From Stentor roeselii (Eukaryota > Ciliophora > Heterotrichea > Heterotrichida > Stentoridae), in contig RSEH01000152.1 of NCBI GenBank assembly GCA_006503475.1, positions 51,571-115,570 of the forward strand: a stretch of 64,000 bases of DNA, in the 5' to 3' direction. A model generated the notes under the pieces. It was not told the origin of the DNA. It saw only the letters and a list, made by a program, of their open reading frames with translations, and did not search any database. Of this stretch, positions 15,413-16,276 are shown piece after piece (positions within the stretch are counted from its first letter, which is position 1; every line of letters begins with the position of its first letter). Both the position numbers and the translations under genes were made by a program.

Positions 15413-16276
15413 TTAGTTTGACCAGTCGTTCCAGTTGTTTTTTAAAGTTTTCATTTCTTTTTGTAAGTCTTTTAATATCTTGTCTGTTTCTAGTCCTAAT
15501 GGGCAGGAACCTTCGGAATAGTCACTTTTGAAAATCGAGTCTTGATCTTGATCGAGAAGGTTTAAAATACGAACGTTTTTAGAAGTGTCTTTTGGCTCGA
15601 TTATCCAACGGTAGGCTTGAAGAAGAACTGAGGGCCCCAGGTATTTTTCACGGCTCCACCAGAAGTTTGGATTTGAGGCGTTGCAGGAACCGCAGAGGTT
15701 GCAGCGAAGGGTTTTTTTTAGCGATTCAGAGGGTTGGATGGGGTTTGGTTGGGGTTCTTTGGTTTGGAGAGATTTTAGAGGTTTATTGGATATTAGCCAT
15801 GGTTGTACTTGCTCGAGACTTGTGTACAGATCTGAAATATCAACTACTAAATCATGAACCACACGATACCCAGTCAATGGTTTAATAGTCATTTGACAAC
15901 TCGGCGTAGTCGGAGCAATACAAGCTAATGTATTCCGTCCATTAATATTCATCGAGCAAATGCCACAAGACCCATCTCTACAATTCTGTCTAAAAGCAAG
16001 CGAACTATCAATATTTTCTCTTATAAAGTTAAGCAAATCAATCACAGAAGGCCCAATATCCTTACTAAAATCAATCCAATAAACCGAGGTATAATCAGTA
16101 TCAGCAGTCAAACTTGCCTCATTAAACCTTTCAACTAAAACCGGTAAAGTTTTTTCCTTATCAGCATTTTCAGGGAGTTCCAAGAAATGTTTTTCAGTTT
16201 TGAGAATTTTTCTAAAAAACAAGGACTCTTTGAGAATAGGTTTGATATACTTTCTTGCAATTTTAAAAGAAATCAT
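15413..16276 (-). CDS. SDHB: Succinate dehydrogenase iron-sulfur subunit, [3Fe-4S] ligands missing
   Basis: The 287-residue product starts with a basic, amphipathic mitochondrial-type presequence. The [2Fe-2S] ferredoxin domain has C99, C104, C107 and C119 (CRDGSCGIC...TLAC). The C-terminal domain keeps CNLCGSC (C192, C195, C198) and C258, which correspond to the four [4Fe-4S] ligands. At the three positions that bind [3Fe-4S] in ordinary SDHB it has N202, I248 and S254, so all three cysteines are absent. The Trp pair of the quinone site (FWW) is retained. SDHB passes electrons from succinate oxidation to ubiquinone in complex II. No frame disturbance or intron explains the substitutions. Identity is sure; the redox consequence is inference. 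Confidence 0.93.
   Translation of the reverse strand: MISFKIARKYIKPILKESLFFRKILKTEKHFLELPENADKEKTLPVLVERFNEASLTADTDYTSVYWIDFSKDIGPSVIDLLNFIRENIDSSLAFRQNCRDGSCGICSMNINGRNTLACIAPTTPSCQMTIKPLTGYRVVHDLVVDISDLYTSLEQVQPWLISNKPLKSLQTKEPQPNPIQPSESLKKTLRCNLCGSCNASNPNFWWSREKYLGPSVLLQAYRWIIEPKDTSKNVRILNLLDQDQDSIFKSDYSEGSCPLGLETDKILKDLQKEMKTLKNNWNDWSN

Follow-up and report, generated by a model that had tools for sequence, protein, structure and literature searches.

A diverged SDHB gene lacking the [3Fe-4S] ligands and a diverged SDHA gene beside a canonical pair in Stentor roeselii: possible parts of a non-catalytic complex II head

The window analysed here is a stretch of 64,000 nucleotides from the genome of the ciliate Stentor roeselii (contig RSEH01000152.1 of assembly GCA_006503475.1, positions 51,571 to 115,570), and it carries a gene derived from SDHB, the iron-sulfur subunit of succinate dehydrogenase (SDH, complex II), which is called SDHB2 here. 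This gene keeps all ligands of the [2Fe-2S] and [4Fe-4S] clusters (8/8) and none of the [3Fe-4S] ligands (0/3). An open gene with exactly this loss had been proposed in an earlier sequence-only reading of the window, and the frame, the codons and the alignments bear it out. If three of the eleven ligands were lost at random, the chance of losing exactly the [3Fe-4S] set would be 1 in 165. Elsewhere in the same assembly there are a canonical SDHB gene and two genes for the flavoprotein SDHA, one canonical and one diverged (SDHA2). The features of SDHB2 are listed in Table 1.

Homology of SDHB2 to SDHB/FrdB extends over the whole protein, with 151.6 bits against TIGR00384 (cut-off 88), and its score against the stricter NF004616 model for the SDH iron-sulfur subunit is 182 bits, below the cut-off of 228. 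The [2Fe-2S] domain Fer2_3 of Pfam is matched with 89.1 bits. For the Fer4 dicluster profile of Pfam no match was obtained in SDHB2 at E-values up to 1, in contrast to the canonical SDHB of the same genome, which matches Fer4_17 and related models. In a structure model, SDHB2 is predicted to adopt the SDHB fold, with low confidence for residues 1-30.

The proximal motif of SDHB2 reads C192-N-L-C195-G-S-C198-N-A-S-N202-P and the distal motif ends in S257-C258-P. The codons at the lost sites are AAT for N202 (15671-15673), ATT for I248 (15533-15535) and TCC for S254 (15515-15517). How the distal loop aligns is uncertain to within a few residues: the canonical C254 and C260 fall on I248 and S254 in the pairwise alignment, as the sequence-only reading had it, and on S251 and S254, with a gap, in the 82-row alignment, so that from its distal assignments C258 stands and I248 gives way to S251 in the latter. 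The [3Fe-4S] loss does not depend on this register, because C258 is the sole cysteine or histidine beyond residue 198. The cysteines of the protein are at positions 99, 104, 107, 119, 127, 192, 195, 198 and 258, and the histidines at 30 and 141. The idea that another residue had taken over as cluster ligand therefore finds no cysteine or histidine candidate in residues 199-287, apart from C258. A single base-call error is ruled out as the cause, since the AAT codon of N202 is at least two bases away from either cysteine codon. Repair by splicing was rejected as well; nine GT..AG stretches of 15-16 nucleotides lie inside the gene, and excision of the four 15-nucleotide stretches puts no cysteine at the lost sites, while excision of the five 16-nucleotide ones breaks the frame.

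Table 1. Position of SDHB2 and of its features in the window
Feature	Position	Strand	Remarks
SDHB2, SDHB-derived gene	15413..16276	minus	287 codons from ATG to TAA; no intron seen
Basic extension at the N-terminus (residues 1-41), possible mitochondrial targeting sequence (inferred)	16154..16276	minus	
Kept [2Fe-2S] ligands C99, C104, C107, C119	15920..15982	minus	frame, pairwise and 82-row alignments
Kept [4Fe-4S] ligands C192, C195, C198	15683..15703	minus	frame and alignments
N202 where the first [3Fe-4S] ligand is expected	15671..15673	minus	codon and alignments
Distal loop, I248 to S254; second and third [3Fe-4S] ligands absent	15515..15535	minus	
Kept fourth [4Fe-4S] ligand C258	15503..15505	minus	frame and alignments

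The searched assembly comprises 44.4 Mb in 522 contigs and contains two Fer2_3 loci, the window gene (contig C62) and one on contig C225, and a protein search agrees. The SDHB on C225 (positions 1090-1974 of its extracted locus) has 294 residues and all eleven ligands. SDHB2 is 32-34% identical to this canonical copy end to end, and its identity to the canonical copy, Tetrahymena and pig SDHB is 31-37%. SDHB2 is a paralogue, and complex II has a normal subunit at its disposal. The earlier proposal of a specialised paralogue is supported by this canonical SDHB together with the diverged SDHA. It had also been considered that a second, canonical SDHB would make the window gene a silent copy; such a copy does exist, but silence is unsupported, with the frame open and 8/8 upstream ligands kept.

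In bacterial SdhB, all eleven ligand columns are cysteine in 80/80 loci; these loci, taken as the best 80 from 587 confirmed hits and found via conserved peptides, lean to normal SdhB. The [3Fe-4S]-less pattern thus appears to be no common variant of ordinary SdhB, and its existence elsewhere is compatible with this sample. Comparison with the Tetrahymena SDHB in the Protein Data Bank (PDB) showed all eleven ligands there, and the complex II of Tetrahymena is described as having three iron-sulfur clusters (PMC10227065, PMC10060162). No second Tetrahymena sequence for SDHA2 or SDHB2 was found among PDB sequences at E <= 0.001. Among papers listed by searches of the open-licence PMC literature, no title or abstract opening describes ciliate SDH paralogues that are inactive or lack [3Fe-4S]. 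Duplication of genes for complex II subunits of proteobacterial origin has been described in some lineages (PMC10952624). A separate observation concerns the histidine after the second [3Fe-4S] ligand, conserved in the bacterial rows, which is tyrosine in the canonical SDHB of this genome and glutamine in Tetrahymena; ciliate complex II may thus be unusual on its quinone side.

The two SDHA genes are the canonical one on contig C179 (623 residues) and SDHA2 on contig C59 (572 open codons), with 35% identity between them. A protein search of the assembly with SDHA2 gave, beyond these two genes, one weak match of 57 residues only, and a broader search for the flavin adenine dinucleotide (FAD) domain gave eight other loci, each matching 36 to 41 positions. 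In SDHA2, the FAD-linking histidine is replaced by N74 (histidine in 63/63 bacterial rows holding a residue there) and the catalytic arginine by E296. In addition, the histidine of HPTG is K261, the histidine of HYxMGG is Y354 and the arginine of ANRLG is L396, and these four positions hold the stated histidine or arginine in 68/68 bacterial rows. All five residues occur in Tetrahymena and Perkinsus SDHA. Their roles are assigned by reference to Escherichia coli SdhA. The protein keeps the GxGxxG glycines (G43, G45, G48), TGDG at 238-241, the active-site glutamate (E284, here E273) and the C-terminal ESRG-x-H block. Of the further flavin surroundings, the conserved glycine G46 is valine and the AAQGG flavin loop reads KITEG, and the capping region has one 8-residue and one 12-residue gap. 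Since the FAD-linking histidine, the catalytic arginine and three further active-site histidines and arginines are lost, it is very unlikely that SDHA2 acts as a succinate dehydrogenase. SDHB2, for its part, is predicted to be without the normal exit to quinone. The genome has one SDHAF2-type (Sdh5) locus (C356:163323-163508), despite its two SDHA genes.

The origin of the diverged copies was addressed with trees of two sizes. In small trees (12/68 SDHA and 12/80 SDHB bacterial rows), SDHA2 and SDHB2 stand beside ciliate sequences with modest support (85/72 and 87/90). In the best topologies, the canonical copy and Tetrahymena are paired with the diverged copy outside (62/45 for SDHA, 91/55 for SDHB), which points either to an older duplication or to long-branch pull; the end branches measure 4.0 for SDHA2 and 3.35 for SDHB2. 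Approximately unbiased tests rejected 0/6 alternatives, three per protein. In mixture-model trees (30/68 SDHA and 34/80 SDHB bacterial rows), the canonical copy and Tetrahymena are again joined (97/84 for SDHA, 99/97 for SDHB), the diverged rows lie on runaway branches of length 10, and the rows nearest SDHB2 by path in the SDHB tree are bacterial. Derived residues shared by SDHA2 with the canonical copy against those shared with Tetrahymena count 7 to 1, which favours a duplication of SDHA2 after the split from Tetrahymena; for SDHB2, the count of 5 to 5 is neutral. A viral origin was set aside after one scan of viral contigs, made with SDHB2 alone, gave seven pattern matches and no relative. 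A foreign origin was likewise rejected, with codon use of the four SDH genes correlating at 0.67-0.81 with that of four window genes, a comparison covering genes of this genome only.

The genome itself shows multiple heterotrich signs. At the right end of C59, the contig of SDHA2, telomere repeats of the form TGTTAGGG were found (one of seven contig ends inspected), and the telomere repeat described for Blepharisma, CCCTAACA, is the same repeat (PMC9942806). Candidate 15-nucleotide GTA..AG introns cover 14/116 in-frame TAA/TAG codons in the long frames of the window that stop at TGA only, and 30 kb of sequence surrounding the other SDH genes contain three more candidate 15-nucleotide introns (both raw counts). 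TGA is the stop codon of the SDHA2 frame and of 2/4 window genes inspected. Reading TGA as tryptophan opens little more of the window (69.4% vs 70.2% at 200 codons), unlike in Blepharisma, where UGA is read as tryptophan. The telomere, intron and stop-codon signs fit a heterotrich ciliate. Another observation is that the third codon positions of SDHB2 are T/G-rich in codons 1-144 and A/C-rich in codons 145-287. Such block switching is seen within single genes of the window and of the genome; the block variance exceeds the shuffled mean in 9/9 genes (six in the window and three elsewhere in the genome) and was reached by 0/300 shuffles in eight genes and by 4/300 in the ninth.

The retention of the two diverged genes can be compared with what chance would leave. 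The odds that random codons of the same composition stay open are about 3e-9 for 287 codons and 1e-16 for 572 codons, as rough values that assume full randomisation. In columns with at least 97% conservation among the bacterial rows, SDHB2 keeps 39/74 of the non-ligand columns, while the canonical copy keeps 71/85 of all such columns. At that rate, the chance of keeping 8/8 upstream ligands is 0.53 to the eighth power, or 0.006. In columns at least 90% conserved, SDHB2 keeps 33/50 in the N-terminal [2Fe-2S] part and 26/61 in the C-terminal part (Fisher p 0.02), and the canonical SDHB keeps 42/50 and 50/61 of the same columns. SDHA2 keeps 20/65 columns in the capping domain and 16/27 in the helical domain (p 0.02 between these two), 73/156 in the FAD domain and 2/8 at the C-terminus. 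The pattern suggests that the retention of SDHB2 and SDHA2 is not explained by decay alone.

A second complex II head would be the simplest account of finding both head subunits in a diverged copy, with damage in each at its own end of the electron path. The reading favoured here, at a probability of about one half, is that SDHA2 and SDHB2 make up a second complex II head, a 'ghost complex II', which arose by duplication, is catalytically dead and has been retained for a non-catalytic job. The [2Fe-2S] and [4Fe-4S] clusters would remain the core around which SDHB2 folds, and its N-terminal domain, the better conserved one, would grip an SDHA-like partner. SDHB2 would pass no electrons to quinone because the [3Fe-4S] site beside the quinone pocket is gone. 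In SDHA2, FAD would be either bound non-covalently or absent, and the protein would not oxidize succinate. The job would most likely lie in structure or assembly at the mitochondrial inner membrane, as an extra module of a respiratory supercomplex or as a holder of complex II subunits. We infer the pairing because duplication and loss are matched in both subunits; expression, import, the cluster and FAD content and the job are also presumed. A structural module is plausible in ciliates, whose respiratory complexes carry many added subunits: Tetrahymena complex II is described with 11 ciliate-specific ones (PMC10060162), and one of the added subunits resembles NDUA9 of complex I (PMC10227065).

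Several points weigh against this interpretation. The genes for SDHA2 (C59) and SDHB2 (C62) are on separate contigs, and gene neighbourhood does not tie them together. Among the PDB chains of the Tetrahymena supercomplex beyond canonical SDHA and SDHB, no match was found at E <= 0.001, so the module, if it is one, is absent from those structures. The domain-bias tests given above were post hoc and used domain boundaries from general background knowledge. In addition, the retention of 8/8 ligands could equally well reflect a redox function.

This last point leads to the best-surviving alternative, in which the pair is a new flavo-iron-sulfur oxidoreductase. SDHA2 would hold FAD non-covalently and act on another substrate, and electrons would run from FAD through [2Fe-2S] and [4Fe-4S] to a soluble or protein partner at the former place of the [3Fe-4S] cluster and quinone, or in reverse. 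Both clusters nearest the flavin keep their ligands, and SDHA2 keeps the GxGxxG glycines, TGDG and the active-site glutamate, but residues around the flavin are lost as well (H382, R427 and G46, and AAQGG changed to KITEG), the 8- and 12-residue gaps lie in the capping region, and no new conserved catalytic set is recognisable from one sequence. This alternative is regarded as doubtful. A somewhat wider statement, still tentative, is that a second flavo-iron-sulfur heterodimer has arisen from complex II, either as a ghost module in a heterotrich supercomplex or as an oxidoreductase that ends at [4Fe-4S] with a non-quinone partner.

Less probable again is that SDHA2 and SDHB2 act apart, as regulatory or assembly decoys, each binding its canonical partner subunit or factors of SDH assembly and so limiting or storing complex II subunits. 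Both proteins have partly kept their SDHA-like and SDHB-like sequence, an SDHAF2-type locus is present, and SDHA and SDHB are described as members of alternative complexes that include assembly factors and TRAP1 (PMC10238741). However, a pair is the simpler explanation when both subunits have a diverged copy whose redox end is destroyed. It is improbable that the genes are decaying duplicates on the way to becoming pseudogenes; the long end branches, the loss of catalytic residues in both and a canonical pair that meets the metabolic need would agree with decay, but the frames are open over their full length at about 35% identity, and the 8/8 ligands and the domain-wise bias in kept columns speak against it. 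Hardly credible is a working complex II in which SDHB2, an SDHB by predicted fold and most of its sequence, replaces or stands beside the canonical subunit under some condition with a novel electron route to quinone, since residues 199-287 offer no substitute cysteine or histidine, the distal loop is degenerate, a canonical SDHB exists, and the gap from [4Fe-4S] to quinone would be too long for fast electron transfer without [3Fe-4S]. The altered electron path in complex II that the sequence-only reading had suggested is likewise not upheld, with the ordinary SDHA and SDHB genes intact and SDHA2 lacking the residues for succinate oxidation.

The sequence-only reading had one odd gene; the analysis widens this to a diverged SDHA2/SDHB2 set beside a normal pair. 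If true, either form of the heterodimer would represent a complex II head no longer tied to succinate or quinone. SDHA and SDHB are strongly conserved mitochondrial proteins, and a normal pair next to a pair disabled at both the succinate site and the quinone-side cluster would be an instance in which nature has separated the structural roles of complex II from the catalytic ones, and a testable case of pseudoenzyme recruitment in respiration. A natural two-cluster SDHB would also make it possible to study whether folding and assembly require the [3Fe-4S] site.

Compared with known systems, SDHB2 has in common with canonical SDHB (Tetrahymena 8b6g_CB and the copy of this genome) the [2Fe-2S] and [4Fe-4S] ligands, the predicted fold and the length, and differs in the absence of the three [3Fe-4S] ligands and in the degenerate distal loop. 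SDHA2 has in common with canonical SDHA (Tetrahymena 8b6g_CA and the copy of this genome) the GxGxxG glycines, TGDG and the ESRG-x-H block, and differs in the absence of the FAD-linking histidine, the catalytic arginine and three more active-site histidines and arginines, and in its capping gaps. A reused complex II paralogue is also known from yeast, where Tim18 of the TIM22 complex is described as a paralogue of SDHD without heme in an assembly other than complex II (PMC10238741). Tim18 is a membrane anchor and a single subunit, whereas here both subunits of the catalytic head are concerned. In Tetrahymena complex II, the ciliate-specific, NDUA9-like subunit SDHTT1 is described as a Rossmann-fold module added to the supercomplex on the matrix side (PMC10227065). 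Unlike SDHA2 and SDHB2, SDHTT1 is not derived from SDHA or SDHB, and it carries a heme assigned as c-type (PMC10227065).
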